Positions 1 to 16,492 of a stretch of 64,000 bases of DNA are shown here, piece after piece. Below the pieces are notes generated by a model that worked only from the letters and a program-made list of their open reading frames with translations, was not told the DNA's origin and made no database searches. The stretch's first letter is position 1. Each line of letters begins with the position of its first letter. Origin of the DNA: Lachnospiraceae bacterium (lineage in GTDB: Bacteria > Bacillota > Clostridia > Lachnospirales > Lachnospiraceae); assembly GCA_017621815.1 (NCBI GenBank), contig JAGASK010000043.1:62001-126000 (forward strand), written 5' to 3'. A program made the position numbers and the translations under genes.

Positions 1-1782
1 ATGCTGCTTCTGGCAGAAGCAGAGCCGGTTTATCGTATGGCATCCGGCCGGACAGAAGGTGCACGGGTCTGGGAAGAGGGATGGTATATAGTCACAGATA
101 CCGGTAAAGAATTTTGCAGGCTGCCCTATGAGACTGATGCCGGGAAGGGGCAGAAACTGATATTGGAGCATGAAATAACCGGGGAAGAATGGAATAAATG
201 GTTTGTCATCCATATTGTGAATGAGTTCTATACAGTTTATGCGGATGATACGCTGCTCTTTGAGCAGGAAACAGCTTATTCGCCCAAGTATGGCGTGGTG
301 CCTGCCGGAGGCCGGCATTATATGCAGATACCGGAAGGTACTAAGATACTGCGTATGGAGGTATCTACTCCGTACATGAACAGCATTCTCAGATACAACA
401 ATATCATGATTGGGGACAGTGAAGGGGCATTGGTACGCGTGTATTATAATGTGTACCAGTATCATTTTGTGATAGACGTGCTGCTGATTGTAACAGGAAT
501 CATTGGTATTTTGTGTGGATTATACCTGTATCTGTTGAAGGAACAGGATAATCTCTTTTTAAAATCAGGCTTTCTGATGGTAGCAGTAGGGGCCTGGCTG
601 CGGGTTGGAACCAGTAATGTTGAGTTTAGCCTGCTGCAGTATCCGGTACAAAGACAGGCATCCTATGCGACCTTTTTGCTGATATCCATTGCAATGTGCG
701 GATTAACCAAATATTATTTTCAGGATGATTACCGGAAATACCGTATCCTGCAGTTTCTATGTCTGGCACAGATGGTCCTGTATTATGGATTGTATTTTAT
801 GGGAATCTTTGAACTGCCGGAAATGATCCCTGCGGTGCATGTGACCTGGGTGGTGCTGGCAGCAAACATCCTGTATGATAACTTCAAATTGATGAAAGCA
901 GAAACCAGGGTGAAGAAATATATCCGTCTGTCTGCTATCATGTTTGTCATCTTGTTCGGCTGTATTGAGTTATTTGTCTATTATTGCAGGCTTAACAGCA
1001 TGAATAAAGGCCTTTGGCTGCGGCTTGGTATTATCCTGTGGGTTGTACTGTCTGCGGCAGAGTATCTTCATGACCGCCGGCGCAGGCGGATTGTTTTGCT
1101 GGAGCAACAGGCCATGCAGAAAGAATTGCAGCTTCAGGTGACATTAAGCCAGTTACAGCCTCACTTTCTTTTCAATGCATTAGGAGCTATCCGCATAATG
1201 ATATATACTGATGCAGAAACGGCATATGATATGCTGTATGATTTTTCGGGATTCCTGAGAGCATGCATCAATAATCTGCGTAACTCCAATATGATTTCTT
1301 TTAGCAAAGAATTGAAGCAGATTAAGAATTATCTGAATATAGAGAAGAAACGATTTAATGAAAGAATACAGGTCGTTTATGAAATTGAGACGGAAGAGTT
1401 TGATATTCCGCCCCTGACGGTGGAACCGCTTGTAGTTAATGCGGTGTATCATGGACTGCGTAAAGGTAAGGATGGAGGAACAGTCACCCTGCGGACGTAT
1501 CGGGAGGAGAAGTATGTTGTTGTCCAGGTGATAGACGACGGTGTAGGTTTTGATACAAAGGCGTGGGAAAGAGAACACCCAATCCGTGAGCAGGATGAAC
1601 TTAGCGGCGCATCTTATATGGGGTTGGAAAATATACGAAGCAGGCTTATAGCTCAGGCGGGAGCAGAAATGCTCATGGACAGCAGCCCTGAGACAGGTAC
1701 GGTGATAACCATTCGCATTCCTACCCGGGCGGAGGAACGCAAAGAGGAGACATTTATAGATGAGAACGATTATAGTAGATGA
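1..1782 (+). CDS. LytS/YehU-type sensor histidine kinase, probably 5'-partial
   Basis: Membrane sensor kinase that would phosphorylate the regulator encoded just downstream. The window opens inside what looks like the hydrophobic part of a signal peptide (MLLLAEAE), so the true start is probably upstream. Residues 20-150 look extracellular. Residues 155-355 contain about seven hydrophobic segments, resembling 7TMR-DISM proteins. The His_kinase box QLQPHFLFNALGAI lies near residue 387, with an ATPase domain after it (IDDGVGFD near 511, YMGLENIRSRL near 539). The N-box reads VEPLVVNAVYHG, so the Glu usual before the Asn is Val. The gene overlaps the regulator gene by 23 bp, which implies translational coupling. 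Confidence 0.9.
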   Translation: MLLLAEAEPVYRMASGRTEGARVWEEGWYIVTDTGKEFCRLPYETDAGKGQKLILEHEITGEEWNKWFVIHIVNEFYTVYADDTLLFEQETAYSPKYGVVPAGGRHYMQIPEGTKILRMEVSTPYMNSILRYNNIMIGDSEGALVRVYYNVYQYHFVIDVLLIVTGIIGILCGLYLYLLKEQDNLFLKSGFLMVAVGAWLRVGTSNVEFSLLQYPVQRQASYATFLLISIAMCGLTKYYFQDDYRKYRILQFLCLAQMVLYYGLYFMGIFELPEMIPAVHVTWVVLAANILYDNFKLMKAETRVKKYIRLSAIMFVILFGCIELFVYYCRLNSMNKGLWLRLGIILWVVLSAAEYLHDRRRRRIVLLEQQAMQKELQLQVTLSQLQPHFLFNALGAIRIMIYTDAETAYDMLYDFSGFLRACINNLRNSNMISFSKELKQIKNYLNIEKKRFNERIQVVYEIETEEFDIPPLTVEPLVVNAVYHGLRKGKDGGTVTLRTYREEKYVVVQVIDDGVGFDTKAWEREHPIREQDELSGASYMGLENIRSRLIAQAGAEMLMDSSPETGTVITIRIPTRAEERKEETFIDENDYSR

Positions 1783-2572
1783 TGAACAATGGGCATTGAC
1801 GCAGCTGCAGGAGGAATTGAAAGATTTTGGTCAGATAGAAATTGTGGGATGCTTCGAGGACCCGAGACAGGCACTAGAATATGCCCGGACGAATCCGGTG
1901 GATTTTGCGCTTTTAGATATCGAAATGCCTTTTCTGGATGGGATGAAGCTTGGCGGCATGTTGAAAGAACTGCACGAAGGGATGGTATTGATCTATCTGA
2001 CGGGTTATGATGAGTATGTTAAAGAAGCAATTCTGGAAGTAAAGGCAGATTACTATCTGTTGAAACCGTTTAATCATCAGGACATAGAGGAAGTGGTAAT
2101 CCGTGCGCTTTCCCTGGGAGAAGTCCGTTTGAAGAAGGAAGTGCGGATTACAGTTTATGGAGGCTTTGAGGTATATATCCGCGGAGAACTGATACATTTT
2201 GTTAATAAGAAGGCAAAAGAACTTCTGGCGCTGTGTGTGCATATGGGCGGTAAACATGTGTCACTGGAGCGGGCGGTAGATACATTGTGGGAAGACCACC
2301 CTTTTGACAACAGTGTAAAAAGTCTTTACCGCAAGTCGGTCATTTATTTGAATACTGTGTTCCGGGATCATGGTATTTCTAATGTATTTGAGAATGGCAG
2401 AGGCTACTGCTGTATTCACAGAGAAAATGTAGAGTGTGATTATTTTGATTATCTTGAGGGTAAGCATAAACCGAAAAATGCCGGTCCTGACAACTGCTAT
2501 CTGCAGGAGTACTCATGGGCTTATGGTATGGACAGCATTGATTCAGAATATTACAAGAAGGACTTCCAATGA
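1760..2572 (+). CDS. Response regulator with SARP/BTAD-like DNA-binding domain
   Basis: Two-component response regulator of 270 residues. The receiver domain (1-118) has the acidic pair in VDDEQ, the phospho-acceptor Asp53 in LLDIEMP and the conserved Lys in LLKPF. Residues 127-235 look like a SARP-type winged helix (VYGGFEVYIRGE, KKAKELLALCV, VDTLWED, then a Tyr/Arg-rich recognition region). This is a fold known from Streptomyces antibiotic regulators and from some clostridial response regulators. SARP domains bind direct repeats spaced 11 bp apart next to the -10 box, and such arrays lie upstream of three nearby genes. The partner kinase gene overlaps its 5' end. Confidence 0.85.
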   Translation: MRTIIVDDEQWALTQLQEELKDFGQIEIVGCFEDPRQALEYARTNPVDFALLDIEMPFLDGMKLGGMLKELHEGMVLIYLTGYDEYVKEAILEVKADYYLLKPFNHQDIEEVVIRALSLGEVRLKKEVRITVYGGFEVYIRGELIHFVNKKAKELLALCVHMGGKHVSLERAVDTLWEDHPFDNSVKSLYRKSVIYLNTVFRDHGISNVFENGRGYCCIHRENVECDYFDYLEGKHKPKNAGPDNCYLQEYSWAYGMDSIDSEYYKKDFQ

Positions 2573-2720: not shown

Positions 2721-2753
2721 GTTGCGCTTGAGTAGCACTTTAAATGCTATGCT
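2721..2753 (+). promoter_or_regulatory. Activator-type promoter of the giant adhesin gene: 11-bp direct repeats plus -10
   Basis: GTTGC at 2721, GTAGC at 2732 and AATGC at 2743 are spaced exactly 11 bp apart. The -10-like TATGCT lies at 2748-2753 and there is no good -35 box. The block matches the one upstream of the chemoreceptor gene (10944-10976) at about 25 of 36 positions. This layout suits a SARP-type activator replacing the -35 contact; the regulator identity is inferred. Confidence 0.6.
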
Positions 2754-2784
2754 GTTTACAATTTGAAAATGAAGGAGAGGCAAT

Positions 2785-5700
2785 ATGAATATAAGGGAGA
2801 CTAAAAAAAGAATCTTGAGTTTACTGCTGGCGCTTGCGTTGTGTGCGGGCACATGGGCAGGTGATTTTCAAACGGTTATGGCGACTGAAAACATGGCGGC
2901 GACGCAGGAGGAGCAGAACAGTACCGGCAGTGATGCCGACAGCAGCATCACCAACAGTACTGACATAGGTAGCAACGGCGATACTACGAGCGGTACCAAT
3001 AGCAGCACCGACAGCGATATCGACAGCAGTTCCGGTGCTGAAAATATAATTAATGGCACAGCCATAACGAAGACAGAGGAAAGCGGAACGGAAACCATAA
3101 TTGTAACGGGAGATAATGGAACCGGAAATAACGGTATTGGAACCGATACAGGGACACAAGCCGTGTCCGGCAGCGGAGACAATATTGATGATGACGATAC
3201 CGGTGAAGAAGAAACCACGCTGACAGACGAGGACATTGAGAAGAACAGCATAGCTATTTATGATGCTCTGTATGGTGAGATAGAAGGGAACTTCAATGAG
3301 GAATGTGGAAAACTGTATAACTCTATTGCGTCAGAATATGGTCTGAACGATGAGGACAACGGGGAGATTACGGATGAACTGTATGCACAGTTTTATGCTA
3401 AGTTCTATGAATCGGCATGCACATTGTTAGACAAAGTGGTGACAGAGAAATTGAACACTGCCAGTGAGCAGGAAGCGTATGCTGATTTACAGAATGAGGC
3501 AGTATATAAAAAAGTATATGACAGTATCCATGATAAGTTGTATGAGGAATATGTTGCGGGACTGAAAGAGATGGGGATAACTACTACTGATGATGATGCG
3601 TTGGACAGTAGTCCCAAAGAATTGACTGGGGAGGCTTTGAAGAGCGAAGTAGAGGTGACCTCGCTTACTGTTGGTGGTGAGACTGTTTACGCCGGAGACA
3701 CCATTAATCTTTCTAGTTATAACGTTAATGATAAGCCGGAATTTAGTGTAATGATGAATTTCGCATTATTGCAGGGTGTAGGCGTAGATGGGGAGGATAA
3801 TTACACAAATATTCAGGAGCGTAAAATAAAATGCGGCGACTACTATATCATTGAAGTACCGAAAGGTTTACTTGTAAAAAGTCTGCCAGGTTCGGGAAAT
3901 TTGACATTTACACTTGGTCAAGAATACATAGTTGCGACTGCCAAACTTGTGAATGAAAATGGTTTGGATATAGATGCGGGTAGTAATGCCAGGTATATTA
4001 AGATAACTTTCACAGACGCGGTTGAATATAGTAATGACAATGAGGACCTGTATGACGTATCATACGGTCTGCAGATGATAATGACGCTTGACGCAGATAA
4101 TTTACCGAATGATGGCGATGATAACATATCTTGGGAACCAATAGTAGGTGATATATTTAATATCAAATTACCGCAGGCGCTTCCAGAGGGCCCGGATGCT
4201 TTGGTGAAAAAGGGTGAATATGATTCTAGGACCAATCAAATTACATGGACGATTACTGTAGGACAGGAGAGCACCAGCGGAATCAAGTTGGACGGATATA
4301 CGCTTGAAGATACCATGGATATGGCTTATCAGACTTTTAAATCAGCAAAGTTTGAGAGCAAAGACATAACCGAGAGCACTGAGGAGGGAACCTTAAGTTT
4401 AACTGCTGCTGATTCGTCAAGTTTAAACGAAAAAATCTATAAGTATACATTACCGACTGGTGCGACAACACCTGCGACATTAACCATTGTAACAGAAGTG
4501 ACAGATGAGCTGACGAAGGCGTTACTGGCAAAACCCGCGGAAGGCGCATCCAGAATAGATGTTGTGAATAAGGTCAATTTGAATGGCTCTGACGGAAATC
4601 TGTTGAAGGATACGGAAGACACGGTATACTTTAACTACAAGAAACCTATCACCAAAGAGGGTAAGCAGATATCAGCGGATTTGATAGAATGGACTTTGAA
4701 GATCAATCCGGAGGGGGCTAATATATATGGTGCCACGGTCAAAGATGAATTAGCATCCTATTTAAAAATAAAGGGTGATATTAAAATAGGAGGCACTTCG
4801 TATTCTTCAGTGGACGGGAGTGTAACAGAAGGATCTGAGATAGAGGGCATAACCTGCAGCTATGATAGTAACAGTGATAATACTTTGACAATAAACTTTA
4901 CAGATGGCAGTGGAGCACTTGCAGGTAAGAGCTATACGGTTACTTTCTATACGGCCATTGATTTGGGGCAGGATTATAATGATGCAATCAAGGAGATTAA
5001 AAATGATGCAGAGATAGTTTGTCGTTTTCCGAATATGAGTGAAGGAACTTATAAGAGTAGTGATTATGGAGACGGTATTGTAGGAGTTAGCGCAAACCAG
5101 AACATGATCATCAAATCTGCTTCTAAAGTAGATCTTAAGACCGGAAATATCACATGGACGATTAAACCGTCTACCGCACAAGGCTCATTTGGTACGGCTG
5201 TGATTACTGATGAGATTCCTGATACGACTTCTGAAGGTTCCAATAAACAGACCTATGTGGATGACAGTGTTAAGGTGGTTTATACCGATACCAATGCAGC
5301 TGTTGATAGCGGTAAGTATGATGTAAAATTTAAAGACTCAACACTAACCATTACGTTGTACGGGAAAGACACCAGTAACTCGGGTAAGGATAATGGACTT
5401 GAACCAGAAGAGTTAAATACTGTTGAGATTACGTATCAAACCCATGCGGACGATCTGGGAACCTTTGTTAATTCTTATGGTGTAGCGCAAAATCAGACAT
5501 ATAAAAACACAGCGGAGTTGCGTGTTGACGGTGCGGCGGCAGTATCAGATACAGCTACAACCTACGTCATAGACAGTATGCTCTCGAAAAACGCCTCTAC
5601 TTATTATAAAGAGTCAGATGACAGTGATTGGCGCGGTTATAAATATACATTAACGGTTAACAATAATAAAATGGTAGTTAATAAGGCTGGTGCCGAAAAG

Positions 5701-8700
5701 GAATTGTTGATAGAGTTAAGAGACTATTTGAATAATCTTGCGCTTACTTATTATGACAAGAATGGCAATCCAATAGATGATACCTCTTTAGCAAGAAAAG
5801 CTAAACTACAGCTGGATATAAGTAAACTTGCGATTACAATCGAAGATGCTGAATATAATAGCTCTACATATACCGGAAATGAAGCAGCGAAGTATTATTC
5901 GTATTCAGGTGCGGATGCTGAGAATGGTACATTAGGAACACTGACAACGACCGGTGACTTTTCCGGTGAAGTAGCACAAGGTAAGAAAGCGACGATTGAG
6001 TTATATGTGCAGATTACCAATGCCGATGAACTATTTAACCAGGGCATCATAGTAAAGGCAAAAAATAGTGCAGAATTATCAGTAACAACCGATGAAAGAA
6101 CAGCTGTTTTTGAAGCTGATGCAACGGGCAGCACGAGCGCAAACAGCACCAGTAGTGATAAAATGATTACGAAAACATCTTCAGGCGGTGTAACTGATAA
6201 CCACGATGGAACATTTTCTTCGGAGTGGAAGGTAGTAATCAATCCATGGAGCGCTAAGCTTGGTGATGTCACGATCACAGACATGATTCTGGCGGAAAAC
6301 TTAGAGAGTGTTGCCTTTGATGCAGATAGTGTGACATTACAGTATGCAACGCATGACACAAGCGGTGAGATATCACCCGGCGATACGGTGCCGACAAGTG
6401 CTTATACGAAGACGATTGCAGAAGATACAGACGGCAATCTTGTGTTGACAGTTACTATTCCTGACTGTGCGGATGCCTATTATTTAACATATAGGACAGA
6501 CTTTTTCAGTAACATTGCGGGGAACAGTTATAAGAACGATGCAACATTGAAATTTAATAAGGATGAGTACACTGCCTCTGCTACGGTTTCACTTGCCAAT
6601 GCTAGCTGGGCGACAGGCACGATGCGTGATTCAGTTACAGTGATCAAACAAGATGCGGATGCAATCGGAAGTAATAAGGTGATTGAAGGCGCAACATTTG
6701 CATTGTACAAGAACGGCATTAAGCTGCGGGAGCAGACTACCAAATCGGATGGTAAGGCCACTTTTCGAAGTTTGAGCTTCAATACAGAATATGAGATAAG
6801 AGAAACGGCACCTGCGCCGGGCTATGAGAAAAACAGTACCTCTTGGAGTTTTAAGACCGGATCAACTAAGAGTGACGAGGATAGAATAAGACTGGCACAG
6901 GAACATACCTTTGAGAACAACCGTACCACCGGTACCGTATCATTCACAAAAGTAGACAACAATGACTCGACGAAAGGCCTGGGCGGCGCAAAGTTTTTAC
7001 TGTACTATACAGAAGACGGTGTAACCAAACTTGTCAGGACGCAGAGCTCGGGAAGCAATACTGACGGTTCCTACAAATTCCTGGAGTTCGTGAATGCGGC
7101 TTCAGGCGATAATGCGCTGGCAACAGACGCTGAAAACGCAGGCGGCGTACTGGTATCCGCCGGGAGCGGCACTGTAGGCAATATAGAAGTGACCGGTCTT
7201 CCATGGGGTGAGGGCACTTATTACTTTATAGAGACAGAGGGACCGAACGGCTATAAAGCTGACTCCACGAAGCATTATGAATTTACCATGAGGAGGCCAT
7301 CCTCTGTGGACAAGCCTGACCCTGAGTATGGGGCGAATTTTGCGGTGACTGACGCGAAAGGAAATATTATTAGTGATATCACAGATGCTATCAGCAAAGA
7401 TGCAAGATACATTATTTTTAACAGCAAATATAAATTTAAGCTGATCAAACAGGACGAGAGCGGAAATCCGATTGCAGGTGTTGAATTCGGACTGTATAGT
7501 GATGAATCGTGTACAAAACTTGTTCCGCTTAAGGAAAATCCATTCAGCACTGATGAGAACGGTACGGTGCTCATTGATGATAGCGCAATAGAATTAAGCA
7601 GTGCTGATAATCCGACCTGCTATTATCTGAAGGAAATCAGTGCACCGGCAGATTACAAGGTCAGTCCGGATGTGGTACAGTTTTATATTGACAGTACTAC
7701 CAAAAAAGTGGTAGTGCTTAATAAAAATAAAATTAAGGACTATGACATATCAAAAGCAGAGAATGAGAATACCTTTACGCTGAAGGACGGTGTAATTCAG
7801 GGTTCCATAGCCCTGTATAAGACGGACGATAAAGGTAAAGGTATCCAAGGCGTTAAGTTTAATCTGTATAAGCTGGCGGATACTGCGGTGACGAAAGCAT
7901 CCGGCAGTGCTTCCTATAGTTTGTCGGGCAAGTTGGCTGCACTCATGTACAGCTCAGAAGCCAAACTGATTGTGAATAATCTGACGACAGATGCGGATGG
8001 ATACTGGTACAGCAGAGAATGTACGAAGACATATACTGATTTTGCCGGTTCTGAAAGAACGGTTTCAGACGGTTTGACAGGCGGCTGGTATTGTTTCTTT
8101 GAGACGGAAGCCGTCGGCAATGTGATTAAAAGTGATGAGGCGTATCTGTTCTGTATCGGGGAAGATGCGGACGGTAATATAACGATAACGGATGCGGAAG
8201 GCAATTCTTTATTGAAAGGCGCAATAGATATTAATGCAGACGGCAGATATGATATCATCAACACCAGAATCACGGCATACCTTCGCAAAGAGGGTGTCGA
8301 CAAAGCGGGCACCAGTACCGAATTGCTGACAGACCCGGGGAAGCAGCTGACTTTGACGCTTTATGAGAAGCAGAACGGTGAATGGATTAAAGTAACCGAT
8401 TTTAAGCCGGGCAATGTGCCGGTAACTGATAAGTCGCTGGCACCTTATGATGGATACAGTAATGATATCAGTCAGTATTTAAAAACCGGCAAAGAGTATA
8501 AGATTGTAGAAACAAAGCCCCATTCTTCTCTGACATATATGAAGGCCGACGATTACTATTTTAAAGTAGATGCATCGGGAGATTTGTACCCGATGACCTT
8601 ACAGGAGAACGGCAGCTTTAAGGTCGAAAGCAAGCTTGAACCTGCAGTGATTGTTATGCAGGATGTGGAAGCGACTATGGCGATTTGGAATCATTACACG

Positions 8701-9831
8701 CATGCAGGCATATTTGTATGTAACCTTGTGGACAGCCGGGGGCGGAAGATAGTTGCAGACCAGACTTTGACCAGCTATAACGAGAATTCTGCACATGATA
8801 TAACAGTGGACGGTATAGACAGCACACCCGGTGGTTCAACAGCATCTCTGTATATGCTTCAAAGAGGAGTGGAATATACATTAACCAGTACCTATTATCT
8901 GACGAAGGATGACTATCAGAATAATAGAAACGGCTATACAACAACCACTGTGGTAACGTGTGATGAATACGGACAGCTGGTACTGGCTGACGGAAGGGAA
9001 CTGACGGACAACACATTCCATATCTATGGCGCAACACAAATAGTTGTCAGGAAGGTGGCTGCTGACGGTGTTCTTGAAGGTTACGAGATTCCGGGAGCCT
9101 CATTAACGCTGCTGCAGGGCGGTATACAGGCTCCGGCAGTGGAATATAATGGTTCTGCTGTTGAATGGAGTTGGAAAACCGACGGATATAAGCCTGTTGC
9201 GGGTAATACGAATGCTTCGGGAACTTCGTTTACAGGTACTGACGGTAAGACTTATGTATATGAAAAACCTGATGGCAACCTGAATGCAAGGGCAGGTTAT
9301 GTGGCAGGGTTCTCAGGAGCGACCGTCTTCACCCTGAGGGAGACTGAGGCTCCGTCCGGATATAAGAGAGCTGCAGATATTGAATTTTCTTTTGATGACA
9401 GCGGCAATATTGAAATCTTAAGCGGTGCAGAAAATGCCCAGGCCACTGTTGATGATAAGGGTACTGTGACTATAACCATGAAAGATGAAGAGGGTTCTGA
9501 TGAAGGCTCTGATGAGACTCCTGATGAGGGTCCTGGCGGAACTTCCAATGGGACTTCTGATGAAACTTCCGATAAGAGTAACAATGATAGTGAAGCAGCC
9601 GCCGAAACCGGCAGCAGTGCCGATGGCAGCAGCGCCGGTTCGTATACCGCATCTTCTGCGGTACAGCCGGAAGCAGCAGAAACCGATGCAGGTGAGCAGG
9701 TTAAGGACGGAGGACGCAATGTAAAGACGGAGGACAAAACCCCGATTGAACTTTACATGATTTTGTCAGTTGCGGTATTAGGTGCCTTTGTAATCCTGAC
9801 ATTGATACTTAAGAAAAAGAAATCGAAATAA
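2785..9831 (+). CDS. Giant sortase-anchored surface protein with Cna/SpaA-type domains
   Basis: Secreted adhesin-like wall protein of 2348 residues. The signal peptide is about residues 1-33. A Ser/Thr/Asn/Asp-rich low-complexity stretch follows to about 155, then a Tyr-rich helical part to about 270. Several large beta domains (about 290-1280) repeat the pattern GNITWTI...VITDEI, as in collagen-binding adhesins. At least five SpaA/Cna-B prealbumin-like repeats follow (near 1283, 1381, 1550, 1672 and 2085), with GATFALYK-type strands and ETEAPSGY-type ends whose Glu could support Lys-Asn isopeptide bonds. An acidic Ser/Thr-rich linker leads to the C-terminal NVKTEDKTPIELY, one membrane segment and KKKKSK. 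There is no LPXTG; NVKTE fits a class B-like sorting motif. A strong SD (AAGGAGAGG) sets the start. The sortase gene follows. Confidence 0.92.
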   Translation: MNIRETKKRILSLLLALALCAGTWAGDFQTVMATENMAATQEEQNSTGSDADSSITNSTDIGSNGDTTSGTNSSTDSDIDSSSGAENIINGTAITKTEESGTETIIVTGDNGTGNNGIGTDTGTQAVSGSGDNIDDDDTGEEETTLTDEDIEKNSIAIYDALYGEIEGNFNEECGKLYNSIASEYGLNDEDNGEITDELYAQFYAKFYESACTLLDKVVTEKLNTASEQEAYADLQNEAVYKKVYDSIHDKLYEEYVAGLKEMGITTTDDDALDSSPKELTGEALKSEVEVTSLTVGGETVYAGDTINLSSYNVNDKPEFSVMMNFALLQGVGVDGEDNYTNIQERKIKCGDYYIIEVPKGLLVKSLPGSGNLTFTLGQEYIVATAKLVNENGLDIDAGSNARYIKITFTDAVEYSNDNEDLYDVSYGLQMIMTLDADNLPNDGDDNISWEPIVGDIFNIKLPQALPEGPDALVKKGEYDSRTNQITWTITVGQESTSGIKLDGYTLEDTMDMAYQTFKSAKFESKDITESTEEGTLSLTAADSSSLNEKIYKYTLPTGATTPATLTIVTEVTDELTKALLAKPAEGASRIDVVNKVNLNGSDGNLLKDTEDTVYFNYKKPITKEGKQISADLIEWTLKINPEGANIYGATVKDELASYLKIKGDIKIGGTSYSSVDGSVTEGSEIEGITCSYDSNSDNTLTINFTDGSGALAGKSYTVTFYTAIDLGQDYNDAIKEIKNDAEIVCRFPNMSEGTYKSSDYGDGIVGVSANQNMIIKSASKVDLKTGNITWTIKPSTAQGSFGTAVITDEIPDTTSEGSNKQTYVDDSVKVVYTDTNAAVDSGKYDVKFKDSTLTITLYGKDTSNSGKDNGLEPEELNTVEITYQTHADDLGTFVNSYGVAQNQTYKNTAELRVDGAAAVSDTATTYVIDSMLSKNASTYYKESDDSDWRGYKYTLTVNNNKMVVNKAGAEKELLIELRDYLNNLALTYYDKNGNPIDDTSLARKAKLQLDISKLAITIEDAEYNSSTYTGNEAAKYYSYSGADAENGTLGTLTTTGDFSGEVAQGKKATIELYVQITNADELFNQGIIVKAKNSAELSVTTDERTAVFEADATGSTSANSTSSDKMITKTSSGGVTDNHDGTFSSEWKVVINPWSAKLGDVTITDMILAENLESVAFDADSVTLQYATHDTSGEISPGDTVPTSAYTKTIAEDTDGNLVLTVTIPDCADAYYLTYRTDFFSNIAGNSYKNDATLKFNKDEYTASATVSLANASWATGTMRDSVTVIKQDADAIGSNKVIEGATFALYKNGIKLREQTTKSDGKATFRSLSFNTEYEIRETAPAPGYEKNSTSWSFKTGSTKSDEDRIRLAQEHTFENNRTTGTVSFTKVDNNDSTKGLGGAKFLLYYTEDGVTKLVRTQSSGSNTDGSYKFLEFVNAASGDNALATDAENAGGVLVSAGSGTVGNIEVTGLPWGEGTYYFIETEGPNGYKADSTKHYEFTMRRPSSVDKPDPEYGANFAVTDAKGNIISDITDAISKDARYIIFNSKYKFKLIKQDESGNPIAGVEFGLYSDESCTKLVPLKENPFSTDENGTVLIDDSAIELSSADNPTCYYLKEISAPADYKVSPDVVQFYIDSTTKKVVVLNKNKIKDYDISKAENENTFTLKDGVIQGSIALYKTDDKGKGIQGVKFNLYKLADTAVTKASGSASYSLSGKLAALMYSSEAKLIVNNLTTDADGYWYSRECTKTYTDFAGSERTVSDGLTGGWYCFFETEAVGNVIKSDEAYLFCIGEDADGNITITDAEGNSLLKGAIDINADGRYDIINTRITAYLRKEGVDKAGTSTELLTDPGKQLTLTLYEKQNGEWIKVTDFKPGNVPVTDKSLAPYDGYSNDISQYLKTGKEYKIVETKPHSSLTYMKADDYYFKVDASGDLYPMTLQENGSFKVESKLEPAVIVMQDVEATMAIWNHYTHAGIFVCNLVDSRGRKIVADQTLTSYNENSAHDITVDGIDSTPGGSTASLYMLQRGVEYTLTSTYYLTKDDYQNNRNGYTTTTVVTCDEYGQLVLADGRELTDNTFHIYGATQIVVRKVAADGVLEGYEIPGASLTLLQGGIQAPAVEYNGSAVEWSWKTDGYKPVAGNTNASGTSFTGTDGKTYVYEKPDGNLNARAGYVAGFSGATVFTLRETEAPSGYKRAADIEFSFDDSGNIEILSGAENAQATVDDKGTVTITMKDEEGSDEGSDETPDEGPGGTSNGTSDETSDKSNNDSEAAAETGSSADGSSAGSYTASSAVQPEAAETDAGEQVKDGGRNVKTEDKTPIELYMILSVAVLGAFVILTLILKKKKSK

Positions 9832-9882
9832 ACAGCAACAGGTAAAAAATTGCAGTGTATTATTTTGCAGTCATAAGAAGTA

Positions 9883-9935
9883 AAGGAAGCCGCAGGAGCA
9901 ATGATATGTTCTTTGTTCTTGCGGTCTCCTTGATT
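9883..9935 (+). terminator. Imperfect terminator or attenuator between adhesin and sortase genes
   Basis: AAGGAAGCCGCAGGA (9883-9897) can pair imperfectly with TCTTGCGGTCTCCTT (9917-9931). The T tract after it is short (TTGATTT). It could reduce read-through so that less sortase than adhesin is made. Confidence 0.45.
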
Positions 9936-9940
9936 TATGG

Positions 9941-9960
9941 CAATAGAAAGTTCGCAAAGT
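9941..9960. repeat. Half copy of the dispersed palindromic element
   Basis: CAATAGAAAGTTCGCAAAGT matches the left arm and loop of the element at 2594-2630 over 19 bases. The right arm is absent. It lies just before the sortase start. Confidence 0.55.
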
Positions 9961-9998
9961 TAATTGATAAGCTGACTCATTTGAGGATAGAGAACATC

Positions 9999-10898
9999 AT
10001 GAGAAAACAGGCAAGAAAACAGGCAAGAGAGCAGGTAAGAGAACAGGCAAGAAGACGGGCAAGAAAACGGGCAAGAGAACAGGCAAGAATGCAAACAAGA
10101 AAACAAGTCAGGGCACGAATAAAGAGTAATAGGAAAAAACAAGATAAGAGTATTCTCGTATTGCAGACGGCCAGAGTCATTATGGCATTGGCATTCTTCG
10201 TGCTGCTGGTTCTTATAGGATATCATTTGTATGAATACAGGAAAGGAGACAGGATATACAGTCAAATCAGGGAGAAAACGATAACGGATAAGACGGAGGC
10301 GGCATCTGTGGAAGAAACTGCTGTGGAGAATGGCGGAGAAATTGACTTTGAAGCGCTTCGGAACCTGAATCCCGATTGTGTGGCATGGATATACGGTTGT
10401 GACGGTGAGATTGATTATCCGGTAGTTCTCTCTAAGGATGATGCCTACTATCTGACCCATACCATTAGCGGTGAGGTAAATAAAGCGGGCAGTATTTTTG
10501 TGGATCAGTATGCGGAAGAGCCGTTTCGGGAATTTCAGACGATTTTGTACGGACACAATATGAAAAACGGCAGTATGTTTCATGCGCTGATGAATTATCG
10601 GAATCCGGAATATTGGGAGAATCATCGGACGGTCACGATATATCTGGAGGGGGAAAAGAAGGAATACCGGATTTTTGCCGCCTATTACAGCTATTATTCG
10701 GAGCTGCCGATATATGATAACATGGAAACACAGGAAGAGCGTGCGGCATATCTTGCCCGTATCAAAGCGTTGTCCCGCTATGATACAGAGGTGGAAGTTA
10801 GTGCTGAAGATAAGCTTCTGACTCTGGTTACCTGTGAATACAGCGGCGAGGATTATCGAATGGTCGTGCACGCTGTAGAAATTACGGAAACAGATTAA
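9999..10898 (+). CDS. Class B-like sortase with Arg/Gln-repeat cytoplasmic tail
   Basis: Membrane transpeptidase expected to link the adjacent adhesin to the cell wall. ATG 9999 is preferred (GAGGA 11 bases upstream, 299 aa) over a GTG at 9855, whose extension would run through a repeat element. Residues 2-37 are a four-residue repeat (R-K/E-Q/R-A). A membrane anchor lies near residues 55-77. The catalytic domain has the His in YGHNMKNGSMFHAL, the Cys in LTLVTCEYS and the Arg in YRMVVHA. The Cys motif and the inserted region before it fit class B. The unusual part is the long basic tail on the cytoplasmic side. Confidence 0.88.
   Translation: MRKQARKQAREQVREQARRRARKRAREQARMQTRKQVRARIKSNRKKQDKSILVLQTARVIMALAFFVLLVLIGYHLYEYRKGDRIYSQIREKTITDKTEAASVEETAVENGGEIDFEALRNLNPDCVAWIYGCDGEIDYPVVLSKDDAYYLTHTISGEVNKAGSIFVDQYAEEPFREFQTILYGHNMKNGSMFHALMNYRNPEYWENHRTVTIYLEGEKKEYRIFAAYYSYYSELPIYDNMETQEERAAYLARIKALSRYDTEVEVSAEDKLLTLVTCEYSGEDYRMVVHAVEITETD
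10002..10109 (+). repeat. 12-bp tandem repeat inside the sortase gene
   Basis: Nine successive 12-bp units with the rough consensus AGARAACAGGCA, each encoding R-(K/E/R)-(Q/R)-(A/V). The first two units are identical and the later ones have diverged. The array keeps the reading frame, so gain or loss of units would change only tail length. Confidence 0.85.
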
Positions 10899-10943
10899 AT
10901 AATATGGGAAAAATGTCCCAAAAGGGGATAAATTCGAAAGAAA

Positions 10944-10976
10944 GTTGCGTTTGGGTTGCACAAATAATGTTATACT
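10944..10976 (+). promoter_or_regulatory. Activator-type promoter of the chemoreceptor gene: 11-bp direct repeats plus -10
   Basis: GTTGC at 10944, GTTGC at 10955 and AATGT at 10966 are in exact 11-bp register. The -10 TATACT lies at 10971-10976, five bases into the third unit, just as at 2743-2753. The shared block strongly suggests one regulator for both promoters. Confidence 0.6.
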
Positions 10977-11022
10977 GCAACGCGAAACTGTAGTCATTTG
11001 TGAGAAGAGGAGATAAGTGAAA

Positions 11023-12723
11023 ATGAAATTGAGGATGAAAATATTGCTGCTGGCTTTGGTTCCGGTGCTTGCGCTGGGAATTGTCATGTTTCTGGTAGCA
11101 TGCGATAAGATTGCCAACGGCATTTATGATGAAGCATATGTAGGGATGCAGGCGACTACACTTGCCGTTCGGGATATATTTGAGACAGGAAATGAAGAGC
11201 CTTATTGTATGGATGAAAACGGGGAATTATGGAAAGGGACGTTGAATATATCACAGGCTACGGATATTACTGACCATATTAAGACCAATACGAATATGGA
11301 GGTTACCGTATTCTGGGGAGACACCAGAATCCTTACTTCTATAGTTGATGAAAAGGGAAACCGGCAGATCAATACAAAGGCTTCCACGCAGGTAACGGAA
11401 CGCGTGCTTAAAAACGGGGAAGTGTATCAGGCCAGAAATGTGGAAATACTGGGTGAAGAATATATTGTATGTTATATCCCTATGTATCAGGCAGGAAGCG
11501 ATGAAATAGTAGGTATGATATTCCTTGGAACGTTGCAGTCCACAGTCAGTCAGATTATCAATAAGGTGCGTCTGCAGTTCCTTCTTATTATAGTATGCGC
11601 TGTGGTTTTGATGACTGTTCTCATTTATTTCATGGTAAGCAGGATCGTGAATGCTCTCAATAGAAGCATGAGGGCTTTAAATGATATTGCGGAGGGCAAT
11701 TTAAATGTCGTGGTGGAACCAAGCGTGCTGAAAAGGAAAGATGAAATGGGTGATTTGGGCAGGAGTGTAGTTAATCTGCAGAGTAAGCTCAATGGTATTG
11801 TGACAGGTATCAGCGAAAAAAGCCGCAATCTGGACATGGAGGTTTCCAATATCGACAAAGTTGCGGCGGATGTTTATCAGGTGATGCAGGAAGTCAATAA
11901 TTCGGCACAGGAAATGGCTGTAAGCAGCACCGAACAGGCACAAAGCGCTAATGAGGCAAGCGAGAATGTGTCGGTTATGGGAGAAATGATTGGAGAGAAT
12001 GGGGCGGAAATTATGAAATTGAATGAAGCCTCAGTACATATGAGAACCGTATCAGAACAGGCAGTAGAACAATTCGTACAGCTGAACCAAATCATTGATC
12101 ACGTCAGGGAAGCTATTCATTTCCTGTCGCAGCAGACAGCGCAGACGAATGAGTCGGTAGCCAGGATCAGTTCGGCGGCGGAATTAATTACGGCAATTGC
12201 CTCCCAAACGAAATTATTGTCTTTAAATGCCAGCATTGAGGCTGCACGTGCAGGAGAGCATGGGCAGGGATTTGCAGTCGTTGCGGCAGAGATACAACAG
12301 TTGTCGGAACAGTCCAACAGTGCAGTAGGGGAGATTCAGATGATGATATCTAATCTGAATACTAATTCAAAGCAGTCCATGGAGCGCACAGAAGGAGTAA
12401 AGGAAGTCATTGAAGAACAGGAAGCAAATATCAAAAAGACGAGCGAAATCTTTAAAGAGGTTTGTGAAGGAATTGAGGAGTCTGTTGAGGGTATGAGCAG
12501 GATTATGGAGAAAGCAGAGAATTTAGAGAATGTCAGAGTCAATACGGTATCTCTTGTACAGAATGCCGCAGCTGTCTCCGAAGAAAATTCTGCAAGCATT
12601 GAAGAGGTTATGGCGTCTGTGGAAAGTATTTATAATGACCTTGGCAATATTAGGGAAAAGACCCATTATTTAAATGATCTGTCGCAGCAGATGAAAGACA
12701 GTGTAAATGTGTTTTCTATTTAA
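11023..12723 (+). CDS. Methyl-accepting chemotaxis protein with single extracellular Cache-like sensor
   Basis: Transmembrane chemoreceptor that would signal to CheA/CheW. Membrane segments lie at about residues 5-26 and 185-210. They flank a roughly 160-residue sensor of single-Cache type ([16 protein letters not shown]). A HAMP domain spans about 210-262. The cytoplasmic coiled coil has the conserved tip [20 protein letters not shown] near residue 400. ATG 11023 lies 10 bases after AGGAG; a GTG at 11017 is an alternative only 4 bases from it. The gene has its own repeat-type promoter and a strong terminator. The ligand cannot be read from sequence. Confidence 0.92.
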
Positions 12724-12816: not shown

Positions 12817-12870
12817 GATGCAATTTTGATGCAAAAATGATGAAACTTTGATGCAAGGGGTTTGTAAAAT
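12817..12870 (+). promoter_or_regulatory. Four-copy 11-bp direct-repeat operator and promoter of the LRR gene
   Basis: GATGC/GATGA units start at 12817, 12828, 12839 and 12850, exactly 11 bp apart (GATGCAATTTT, GATGCAAAAAT, GATGAAACTTT, GATGCAAGGGG). The next in-register unit contains a -10-like TAAAAT at 12865-12870. The repeat-to-(-10) layout resembles the promoters at 2721 and 10944, with one more unit. The repeats lie in a non-coding gap and put one face on each DNA turn. Confidence 0.65.
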
Positions 12871-12910: not shown

Positions 12911-15900
12911 ATGAAAAAAGGGCGGAGCATATGGGTAAGGCTGGCTGCAATGGTGTTATTGTATTTGATTGCGATGTCGGCTGTGATTCTGATTACATGG
13001 ATGGTAGTTGAAAAATGCATGGGAATGCAGCTGCAGACAGCGGATGATTTTATAAAGGAAGATAAGCTTGGCACGCTTAACATATCCTCCGACGGATTTT
13101 ATGAAATCAAAAACAGGGAAGACTACATGATTTTCTGGGAAGCCGTAGAAGACGGAAATTTCAATATTAACGGAAGGCTCCTTGATGATATCCGGTTGAA
13201 TGATACTGAAAATATTGAAAACTGGGGATATGTAATGCCTGAATATGTATGCGGTAAGGCGAAGCATTATTCAGGAATCTTTGACGGCGGGGGTTATACT
13301 ATCTACGGTCTTTATGCAAAAGACGGTTATGGAATCGTATGCAATAATAACGGAACCATTCAAAATGTAAAAATTAAGGATTCTGTTGTCAGGGGCGGCG
13401 TCCAGGGTGCCGGTATCTGTCTTTATAACAGCTCTTCAAACGCCCTTATCAGTAATTGCAGTTTTTATGGGGAAATCAGCAGCACCTACAGCAGCATACC
13501 GGCATCCCTTTCAGGAATATGCGCATTTAATGAGGGCGTTATAGATAAATGCGGGTTTATGGGAAGGATGAATCTGAAAAACAGCACTGCGGACAGCTGT
13601 GATGTTGCAGGAATCTGCATGAGGAATCTTGGAAAGATTTCAAACTGCTATAATTTAACGCAGAGTTCTTTTAAAGGAAAAGGGAAAAAATATGCAATTA
13701 CGGATGTGGGGGAAAAGAATTGCTATATGCTGGTAAATACGGGCTGGCTGTCCTACACCCACCAGACCCTGCCGCTTACTGTGGAGCAGAGTTTTCTCAT
13801 TGATGCGTATATAAATAAGGACATTAATGCGCTAATAAACAGTCAGCAGCCTGTATGGCTGGCCCAGCTTTCCGCCATGCGGAATGGATTGACGAAAAAA
13901 AAGGAAAATGGAATTCAATTTGGAAAAGCAGCTGATGCGGAAGGTTCCGGAACTGCGGGATATTTTGCCATAAATGAAAAAGACGGTGAGACAGTACGCC
14001 TTTACAGTATTTTGCAGGATGAAGTAATAAGGAATATTGTTTTTGATATCTTATGTCAGAAAAACGGCAGCATAGAAAAATTTTCTTTTGATGCAGTAGA
14101 AACGAAAAATGGTTTTTGCTTAAATATTACTTATGGAAAGGAAAACATATTATTAAGCAGATATTCCGCAAACGATGTTTTTGATGAAAATGAACTTTGG
14201 GAGAAATGCAGTCAGATTCTTGCAGAAGAAAATGAAGACACGTGGTCTCATGAAACTTATATGCTTCTGCCGGCGTATGTGCTCTTGCCGGAAGCGTCAT
14301 TCGGAGAAAAGCTTCTTTTTTATCATACGCAGGAAAAGGAATCCGGTATTTTTTATGTCAATGAAGAAAATCTCTATCAGATGGTACCGGGAGATGCGGA
14401 TGGAGAGGAAGAGATTACGCTTGCAGGAGATTATCTTCTGGCAGTTTATGATGCTTACCGTGGAAAAGAAGAAAGTGAGGCAGCAGTTTCTAAGAAAAAC
14501 GGCAGCAAAAAAGTATCTGTTTTTCAAGTGGCTTTCAGGGAGATTTTAGAAGATAAAATACCAGGTGACGGAGTAGGATGGAAGGATGAAAAGGTTCGGG
14601 AAACGGTCTGCAGAGAAATTTCAGGGAACAAGGATGTCTTGCTTTCCAGGGAAGAAATTTTAAACTTTAAAAGTCTGGAAATTGCGGATGGGGAAGGATT
14701 AAAGACTTTAATGGATTTGGAAAAACTGCCGGGGCTGACCTGCCTGTATGTGGAAGGCTGTGACAGCGAAAAAGCCATAAAAGACTTGAAAAAGCTTAAG
14801 TTAAATCATTTGACTGAGTTGTATCTGATTGGCTGCGGAATTACGGATATCTCATTTATTGAAAATATGCCTGAACTGACAGAGGTTTCCTTTTACTCCA
14901 ACCAGATATCCGATATTACACCGCTGGCAGCCTGCAGGAAACTGACAGTTATGTCACTTGGAATGAATGATATTTCTGATATTTCCGTGTTGTCAGAACT
15001 GCCTATGTTAGAAGAAGCGGGACTGCAATGGAATCAGATAGAAAATATAGAAGTTTTAGGAAGCTTAGAGAATCTGACAGCAGTGAATCTTTCGGCAAAC
15101 CAAGTGACAGATTTATCACCGCTTAAGAATAACACAAACTTAACGGCTCTTGGACTTGCGGGGAATAACATTAGTGACATTACTGCCTTACAGGATATGA
15201 CTAATATGGTCAATCTGTCTCTTTCCCTGAATCAGATTCAGGATATCAATGCCCTTAGGAATATGACGGAAATGGAATGGCTTGGGCTTTCCTGCAACAG
15301 AATAGAAGATTTTACCCCTATTGGGGAGATGAAGAATTTATTTTTCCTGGATGTATCCGATAATCCAAGTCAGGATATCGGAGAACTGTGTCTGGTTCCT
15401 AATCTGACAGTGGGAATGAGAGCCATAGAGGAAGACCATTCCGAAGAACTTCAGTGGGCACAGAGGCTAATCAGCCAATATGAGCCGCAGCAGGGAATGT
15501 TTGCGGAAGATTTGGCATGGGGAGATTTTAACGGTGACGGTATCAGGGATGTTGCCATCACCGGCTGTATGGGAGAAGAAGTGGATGAAAAGGGTAAAGT
15601 TATTAATTGGAACCAAAGAGAAAGGAAGGTTTATTCCTTTCTGGGCCTGGGAGAGGGGAAATACACTTTGCTGAGAGCCGTGCAGACCCTTACTCCCAGT
15701 GACGGTGGAATATGGGGAGACCCTTATCTTGGAATTGCCATATGTAATAATCGGTTGGTGGTGCAGTGTTACGGAGGAAGCAGTTACAGATGGGCTCAGA
15801 CAGATATTTATGAATATCAGGACGGATATTTAAAGGAAAGATGCAGCCTGTCTTTAAATAATTATGTATGGTCCCAGGGTTATGACTGGTATGTATGGGA

Positions 15901-16492
15901 CTTAAAAAATGATGCAAAAAAGAGATATGCTTTTGTGGGAGAACGGGAAAGACATATGGAGAAGCTGCTGTTAGCTGATGAGAAGGAAAGTGGAGAAAAA
16001 AGCAGTTTGCAGGAAGAATATGAAGCACGGCTGTCAGAGCTTAAGCAAAAGACAGATGAAAAACTGCCGGAAATAGAAAACTGGAACTATATGCCGGAGG
16101 TTGGTAAAGGACATTATGCATATGAAATTCATGAGCCTCTTTATGAAACGAAAAAGGATGCGGATTTTATTCTGTGGTATACGGCGCAGACTTATATGAG
16201 GGATATCCTGAATGTTCCGATTCCGGAATACAGCAATGCAGAAATTAAGTATAATCATGATATTTTAGCGGGAGTGGAATTGCCTGAATGCTTTTATGCC
16301 GGAAAAGGCGGTTTTAAATATCCGTTTTATGAGAATATTCAGATATTGACTTATGAGAATTGTTTTGTGGAAGAAGACGGCGGATATGTGCATGTGATGA
16401 AGGTATGGGAACCGGATATGGAAAATGATTGCTGGAATTATACGGCACGTGTTTATTACTATGAAAGTACAGCTTCTTTTGAAATACATTAA
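12911..16492 (+). CDS. Membrane-anchored GLUG / leucine-rich-repeat / VCBS-like surface protein
   Basis: Protein of 1193 residues with an N-terminal membrane anchor (about 10-32), so probably displayed outside the cell. Residues 119-250 carry GLUG-like repeats (FSGIFDGGGYTIYGLYA). Residues 630-830 hold about nine internalin-like LRRs of 21-22 residues (ITDISFIENMPELTEVSF spacing, NQISDITPL, NNISDITAL). Near 872 a calcium-loop-like DFNGDGIRDVAITG resembles FG-GAP/VCBS repeats. No sorting signal or lipobox was found. The start has SD GTGAGGT at 6 bases. The next gene, also LRR-bearing, follows after 40 bp and is probably cotranscribed. A role in binding partners or glycans is inferred only from domains. 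Confidence 0.82.
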   Translation: MKKGRSIWVRLAAMVLLYLIAMSAVILITWMVVEKCMGMQLQTADDFIKEDKLGTLNISSDGFYEIKNREDYMIFWEAVEDGNFNINGRLLDDIRLNDTENIENWGYVMPEYVCGKAKHYSGIFDGGGYTIYGLYAKDGYGIVCNNNGTIQNVKIKDSVVRGGVQGAGICLYNSSSNALISNCSFYGEISSTYSSIPASLSGICAFNEGVIDKCGFMGRMNLKNSTADSCDVAGICMRNLGKISNCYNLTQSSFKGKGKKYAITDVGEKNCYMLVNTGWLSYTHQTLPLTVEQSFLIDAYINKDINALINSQQPVWLAQLSAMRNGLTKKKENGIQFGKAADAEGSGTAGYFAINEKDGETVRLYSILQDEVIRNIVFDILCQKNGSIEKFSFDAVETKNGFCLNITYGKENILLSRYSANDVFDENELWEKCSQILAEENEDTWSHETYMLLPAYVLLPEASFGEKLLFYHTQEKESGIFYVNEENLYQMVPGDADGEEEITLAGDYLLAVYDAYRGKEESEAAVSKKNGSKKVSVFQVAFREILEDKIPGDGVGWKDEKVRETVCREISGNKDVLLSREEILNFKSLEIADGEGLKTLMDLEKLPGLTCLYVEGCDSEKAIKDLKKLKLNHLTELYLIGCGITDISFIENMPELTEVSFYSNQISDITPLAACRKLTVMSLGMNDISDISVLSELPMLEEAGLQWNQIENIEVLGSLENLTAVNLSANQVTDLSPLKNNTNLTALGLAGNNISDITALQDMTNMVNLSLSLNQIQDINALRNMTEMEWLGLSCNRIEDFTPIGEMKNLFFLDVSDNPSQDIGELCLVPNLTVGMRAIEEDHSEELQWAQRLISQYEPQQGMFAEDLAWGDFNGDGIRDVAITGCMGEEVDEKGKVINWNQRERKVYSFLGLGEGKYTLLRAVQTLTPSDGGIWGDPYLGIAICNNRLVVQCYGGSSYRWAQTDIYEYQDGYLKERCSLSLNNYVWSQGYDWYVWDLKNDAKKRYAFVGERERHMEKLLLADEKESGEKSSLQEEYEARLSELKQKTDEKLPEIENWNYMPEVGKGHYAYEIHEPLYETKKDADFILWYTAQTYMRDILNVPIPEYSNAEIKYNHDILAGVELPECFYAGKGGFKYPFYENIQILTYENCFVEEDGGYVHVMKVWEPDMENDCWNYTARVYYYESTASFEIH

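Follow-up and report, generated by a model that had tools for sequence, protein, structure and literature searches.

Two promoters built on phased 11-bp repeats as probable operators of a Lachnospiraceae response regulator, ahead of an adhesin-sortase operon and a chemoreceptor gene

The locus and its two promoter blocks

We analysed a stretch of 64,000 nucleotides (the window) from a Lachnospiraceae bacterium (the host), which corresponds to bases 62001-126000 of contig 34 in a genome of 3.5 Mb and 52 contigs. The features at its beginning lie on the plus strand in the order sensor kinase, response regulator, block S1, adhesin, sortase, block S2, chemoreceptor, an array of four 11-bp units, and a leucine-rich repeat (LRR) gene (Table 1). 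S1 and S2 are short promoter-like blocks. We hold, with a probability of about 0.8, that they are the operator-promoters of the response regulator encoded next to the kinase, which would activate the adhesin-sortase operon and the chemoreceptor gene, the LRR gene being outside its control. The sortase gene is presumably co-transcribed with that of the adhesin. No riboswitches were found in the window at Rfam gathering scores.

Each block consists of two 11-bp direct repeats, five nucleotides and an extended -10 element, in which TGn stands ahead of the hexamer. An earlier note on this DNA had put the agreement between the blocks at about 25 of 36 positions and had described units 11 bp apart, with the -10 beginning five bases into the third unit. 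Both descriptions are accurate for the two blocks. They are identical at 25/34 positions (25/36 with two more bases), whereas the runner-up matches on both strands of the window reach 20/34 for S1 and 21/34 for S2, the latter at the array before the LRR gene. At spacings of 15-19, the best candidate for a -35 hexamer agreed with TTGACA at only 2/6 positions. An extended -10 without a recognisable -35 fits promoters that depend on an activator. The distance from the -10 to the start codon is 31 nt for S1 and 40 nt for S2.

When the whole genome was scanned for the full pattern including the -10, allowing up to 3 mismatches, it was found at 3 places, compared with 1 for a reversed control pattern. 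Only S1 and S2 are exact, and the third place carries 3 mismatches. Taken alone, the repeats match exactly at three genomic positions, one of which (C15:6198) was dropped as a site because it has no phased -10. A weaker result was obtained with the repeat pattern in the window: 2 places at up to 3 mismatches, both of them exact matches, versus 0.92 expected, and 17 of 100 shuffles reached 2 as well. A loose GWTGCA repeat was not enriched in the window (24 versus 22.3 expected). The evidential strength of S1 and S2 comes from the complete block, phased -10 included, not from the repeats alone.

Table 1. Coordinates of the features discussed. Plain numbers are window positions; other coordinates carry the contig or locus to which they refer.
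Feature	Position	Strand	Remarks
Sensor histidine kinase	1..1782	+	PF06580 His_kinase and HATPase_c; start about 70 bp upstream of the window
Response regulator	1760..2572	+	Receiver and SARP/OmpR-type winged-helix DNA-binding domain; no BTA domain match
S1 block	2721-2753	+	GTTGCGCTTGA GTAGCACTTTA AATGC TATGCT
S1 repeat unit 1	2721..2731	+	GTTGCGCTTGA
S1 repeat unit 2	2732..2742	+	GTAGCACTTTA
S1 extended -10	2745..2753	+	TGC-TATGCT; no -35 element
Giant SpaA/Collagen_bind-type surface adhesin	2785..9831	+	2348 aa
Class B sortase	9855..10898	+	
S2 block	10944-10976	+	GTTGCGTTTGG GTTGCACAAAT AATGT TATACT
S2 repeat unit 1	10944..10954	+	GTTGCGTTTGG
S2 repeat unit 2	10955..10965	+	GTTGCACAAAT
S2 extended -10	10968..10976	+	TGT-TATACT; no -35 element
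Methyl-accepting chemotaxis receptor	11017..12723	+	sCache_3_3 sensor, HAMP and MCP signalling domains
Array before the LRR gene	12817..12860	+	4 x 11-bp GATGCAA; different, genus-wide operator, outside the S1/S2 system
LRR protein	12911-16492	+	
Other host arrays	G000:C34:189741, C34:30270, C17:85639, C6:3517		At least four 11-bp GATGCAA units
Relatives' operators leading into putative small RNAs	L289:9807, L290:11475, L015:1482	-	
Relatives' operators leading into putative small RNAs	L070:10802, L071:4277		

The response regulator and the block beside its relatives

The regulator carries a receiver domain (PF00072, E=5.6e-19). Its phospho-acceptor D53 is invariant in 48/48 sequences, that of the window included, and a kinase gene is adjacent. 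The DNA-binding half of the protein has no Pfam match above the cut-off. When a profile of 23 sequences was compared with solved structures, EmbR came first (E=4e-5, the alignment stopping at EmbR residue 121), the OmpR-type structure 1p2f second (E=3.8e-4), and AfsR followed with E=0.004. The best NCBIfam match of the window domain is the AfsR/SARP model BagI/FevR, with an E of 9e-4 that lies far below the curated cut-off; among the 23 members, the OmpR-type models VanR (7 matched) and RpaB (5, best 1e-6) do at least as well as BagI/FevR (5) and AfsR (4). Trans_reg_C (PF00486) matched 12/23 members at E <=1 (best 1.4e-6) and gave no match to the window protein. The BTA domain had no Pfam match either in the window protein or among the domains of the 23 relatives. 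Since EmbR is the best match and an OmpR-type structure the second, the "SARP-domain" label given by the earlier note is plausible and not settled; we regard the DNA-binding domain as SARP/OmpR-type, perhaps SARP-like.

The next match to the regulator in its own genome is far weaker (E=6e-12) and covers residues 1-114 only. In the genus set (37 genomes, own included, 22 of them at least 90% complete), none of the 36 congeners has the regulator at E 1e-40. In the wider family, a relative is present in 64/200 genomes (own included) at E 1e-25. By eye, a gene with a receiver-domain-like ending precedes the kinase gene both here (L065:6700-6930, upstream of window position 1) and in Roseburia hominis An869 (L057:3700-4150), which suggests a conserved signalling cluster.

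The layout of the block recurs downstream of regulator orthologues in other genera. In R. hominis An869, which has the closest orthologue (66% identity), GTTGCACTTTA GTTGCATATCA followed by tattg and TATTAT lies downstream of the regulator gene. A 49%-identical regulator stands beside a Cna_B/SpaA and sortase locus, and there GTACGTTTTTG GTACATTGGAG is found ahead of the -10. A scan of 80 loci gave a match in 30, of which 19 were judged convincing. Eight minus-strand matches (L073, L085, L086, L089, L091, L092, L096, L102) were dropped and read as coding conservation because of near-identical letters about 650-690 bp past the stop codon of the response regulator, in or beside an open reading frame; those in L096 (plus strand), L131, L143 and L146 seemed doubtful and were not kept either. 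Where another gene follows the response regulator directly, a look by eye upstream of the kinase gave one weak operator candidate (L064).

The spacing of the repeats was assessed in stretches of 475 bp around the point where the regulator gene ends. This covered 80 regions, namely the window and 79 of the 80 loci (L075 has no stop codon), and a region was counted if it held a repeat with at least 6/7 bases and a -10 after two units. At a spacing of 11 bp, 23/80 regions were counted, compared with 0-3/80 at 7-10 and 12-17 bp. In 60 rounds of dinucleotide shuffling, 1.0 regions were counted on average and 3 at most, against the real value of 23. When the -10 was not required, -10 hexamers clustered 27-28 bp past the repeat start at a spacing of 11 bp and not at 9, 10, 12 or 13 bp, with neighbouring registers of one repeat counted separately.

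The letters of the operator were compared with the recognition helix in 33 regulators that have an assigned site. The helix reads VKxLYRK in 19 of them, a subset picked after seeing the table. There, S, A or R at x is associated with G as the fourth base of unit 1 (6/6), and N with A (13/13; second unit 12/13). A VKTRYRK helix pairs with C at this base (L010). Within the VKxLYRK subset, helix residue and operator letters covary.

Several observations weigh against our interpretation. The antisense strand gave 7/80 regions at 11 bp and 0-5 at other spacings, and 57/80 regions fail the spacing test on the sense strand, including the window, where the units of S1 match at 5/7. Register and threshold were chosen with knowledge of relatives some of which are part of the test set themselves (L069 is G122 and L100 is G006; L080 and L090 are near-identical to G028 on the tree; the site of L107 is that of L080), and the 80 loci are related, not independent. 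As to the helix, L023 and L114, which lie outside the VKxLYRK subset, combine S with A, contrary to the simple rule. On the tree, the N/A rows fall mostly into one clade, with L015 apart, so few independent changes back the covariation. The chemoreceptor appears as a target in this genome alone. Finally, four relatives' genomes were searched with a GTTGC-type pattern, and those of R. hominis An869 and [Clostridium] asparagiforme (G122, G434) contain the linked operator only, at up to 1 mismatch.

Likeness to known systems and alternative explanations

Operators of this geometry have been described elsewhere. According to PMC3091779, the operators of CiaR in streptococci have the form TTTAAG-N5-TTTAAG, with ten nt between the second hexamer and the -10. 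CiaRH shares with S1 and S2 a response regulator, 11-bp direct repeats and 16 bp from the start of the second unit to the -10. CiaR also drives small RNAs (csRNAs) complementary to Shine-Dalgarno sequences (PMC3091779), and these resemble the putative C-rich small RNAs found after relatives' operators (see below). The repeat letters differ (TTTAAG versus GTNRC.. in S1 and S2), so the agreement is one of spacing alone; moreover, the kinase here is of the PF06580 type, and the window's predicted targets comprise an adhesin operon and a chemoreceptor.

The SARP rule, as given in PMC10936776, is 11-bp direct repeats over the -35 region with the 3' repeat about 8 bp from the -10. The AfsR box is given there as 22 bp centred at -29.5; the repeat letters of the box come from PMC10972967. 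The AfsR activator is positioned between the DNA and sigma region 4. S1 and S2 follow this rule with 11-bp units and 16 bp from the start of unit 2 to the -10, which is 9 bp past the heptamer, and the arrangement recurs in relatives. In afsS, the second-repeat GTT likewise lies 16 bp from the -10, if the afsS -10 is assumed to start at -12. EmbR and AfsR are also among the structural matches of the 23-sequence profile. In contrast to SARPs, this regulator has a receiver in front, no detected BTA domain, an origin in Clostridia instead of actinomycetes, and no antibiotic-pathway genes among its window targets.

OmpR/PhoB-type regulators share the receiver and the winged helix, 1p2f ranks ahead of AfsR, and the VanR and RpaB models match relatives as listed above; the window domain, however, has no Trans_reg_C match, and among NCBIfam models an AfsR/SARP one fits it best. 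LytTR response regulators such as AgrA and AlgR also pair with PF06580-type kinases and bind direct repeats, but the window regulator has no match to the LytTR domain. Since several winged-helix regulators use this geometry, geometry alone cannot settle membership. Since it is the geometry of CiaR and SARP operators, the mechanism would be of a known kind.

We propose that the membrane kinase responds to a signal by phosphorylating the receiver domain. The response regulator would then dimerise, and its two winged helices would sit head-to-tail in the 11-bp repeats along the same face of the DNA. The repeats occupy the place of a -35, with 16 bp from the start of the second unit to the extended -10, and the bound dimer could substitute for the absent -35 contact of the sigma factor and recruit RNA polymerase. 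For this contact we infer the activator-sigma arrangement by analogy with AfsR. Acting as an activator rather than a repressor, the regulator would turn on the adhesin-sortase operon through S1 and the chemoreceptor gene through S2 jointly, which suggests that attachment and steering are switched on together in the host.

It is improbable that S1 and S2 are instead bound by another regulator of the host, for example an OmpR-type response regulator, and that the adjacency of kinase and regulator is incidental. The host genome does hold 34 other matches to the regulator at E 0.001, mostly through the receiver domain, and CiaR, a different response regulator, has the identical geometry (PMC3091779). 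Yet the blocks recur in several genera beside orthologues of this very regulator, with letters that track the recognition helix in a subset, and chemoreceptor homologues in congeners and elsewhere are found without the block. It was absent from the 250 bp upstream of all 29 other genus homologues with loci (28 in congeners and one own paralogue; 30 of 37 matches had loci, own included). Upstream of 6 closer homologues (42-63% identical) elsewhere in the family it is missing as well. The regulator search covered three of these six genomes, of which two are without a match at 1e-25 and one contains a 32% relative.

The recurrence beside regulator orthologues supports the part of the earlier note in which the two-component system controls the adhesin and the chemoreceptor, and the absence of the block before these 29 and 6 homologues is further evidence for it. 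The earlier note had gone further and placed the LRR gene in the same regulon. That one regulator governs all three genes, by way of S1, S2 and the array at 12817, is in our view still less probable. The array likewise has 11-bp units, its -10 follows four bases past the last unit, its GATGCAA units are similar to GTTGCRC, and it is the third-best place for S2 after S2 and S1 themselves; its 21/34, however, is scarcely above the background of 20. The array occurs in 30/37 genus genomes, at 1-26 places each and 5 in the host (overlapping registers of one array were counted more than once), with no control match. By eye, it precedes LRR homologues of congeners in 14/24 loci, or 13/22 genes, and most of the others end short of the gene start. 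The regulator, at 0/36 congeners (E 1e-40), does not share this distribution, and the LRR gene was rejected as a third member. We assign the GATGCAA array to another system, so that the proposed regulon is one of two promoters.

Further arrays are present in the host genome (Table 1). In the loci read, arrays precede LRR, lipoprotein-like and secreted-protein-like genes. One lies just after a gene pair that is response-regulator/kinase-like by eye (L261:1821-3938), the first gene of which is also among the host-genome matches to the window regulator. This pair is a candidate for the regulator of the GATGCAA arrays.

That S1 and S2 are ordinary extended -10 promoters, alike by chance or through recent duplication of promoter DNA, is very unlikely: the common AATGnTATnCTG by itself would be an ordinary extended -10, and with 3 mismatches allowed the repeats on their own are no rarity in the window, but the identity of the two blocks exceeds that of every runner-up on either strand of the window, and other genera share the layout.

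Regulon size and targets across relatives

A strict family pattern was found at 9 exact places in 8/397 genomes, compared with 1 control match, and S1 and S2 account for two of these places. The other two genomes searched with the GTTGC-type pattern, those of L070 and L071, each contain one exact operator by the regulator and a second exact one on another contig. When these two species are compared, the spacer and the upstream DNA have diverged, whereas repeats and -10 are conserved. Across five genomes, regulons of one or two promoters seem to be usual.

The genes behind the operator differ. In L095, it stands ahead of PqqD and radical-SAM genes; in L060 (G028), a helix-turn-helix gene comes first, as in the near-copy L080, and is followed by PqqD, radical SAM and an ABC transporter. 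In [Clostridium] asparagiforme (L097:10862-10995), a cyclic di-GMP (c-di-GMP)-I riboswitch begins about 14 nt after the -10, which suggests a two-input switch. Downstream of the operators in the genomes of L070 and L071 lie short stretches that contain stable hairpins and loops rich in C (UCCCC or CUCCUC) and that end like terminators; the stretch after the L015 operator resembles them (Table 1). These C-rich stretches are probable anti-Shine-Dalgarno small RNAs. An Rfam search of L080, L087, L095, L098, L100, L114, L118 and L120 gave rRNA and tRNA only. The stretch after the second operator of L114 (L114:8924), which contains GGAGGAAAGTCC, looks RNase-P-like from its letters but had no Rfam match up to E=1.

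We put even odds on a broader reading, according to which a SARP/OmpR-type class of regulators is widespread in Lachnospiraceae and other Clostridia and acts through a rigid operator-promoter grammar of two 11-bp units, 5 nt and a TATACT-like -10, a helix residue maybe setting base 4. Its targets would be swapped by lineage: adhesin-sortase and chemoreceptor genes in one, and in others a pilin-type locus, peptide clusters of the PqqD/radical-SAM kind, a transcript headed by a c-di-GMP riboswitch, or C-rich anti-Shine-Dalgarno small RNAs. No recognisable description of such a class in Lachnospiraceae was found in the titles and abstract starts among the matches listed, which mostly do not cover subscription journals, and the class is apparently undescribed so far.

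The comparison tells apart two look-alike 11-bp systems within one genome. If our interpretation is true, the locus offers a testable regulon, in which attachment by adhesin and sortase and steering by a chemoreceptor come under one signal in a gut-type anaerobe. A fixed grammar would make the targets of many uncharacterised Clostridia regulators readable from sequence, and a helix residue that sets base 4 of the repeat would, if true, give a recognition code for predicting their regulons.

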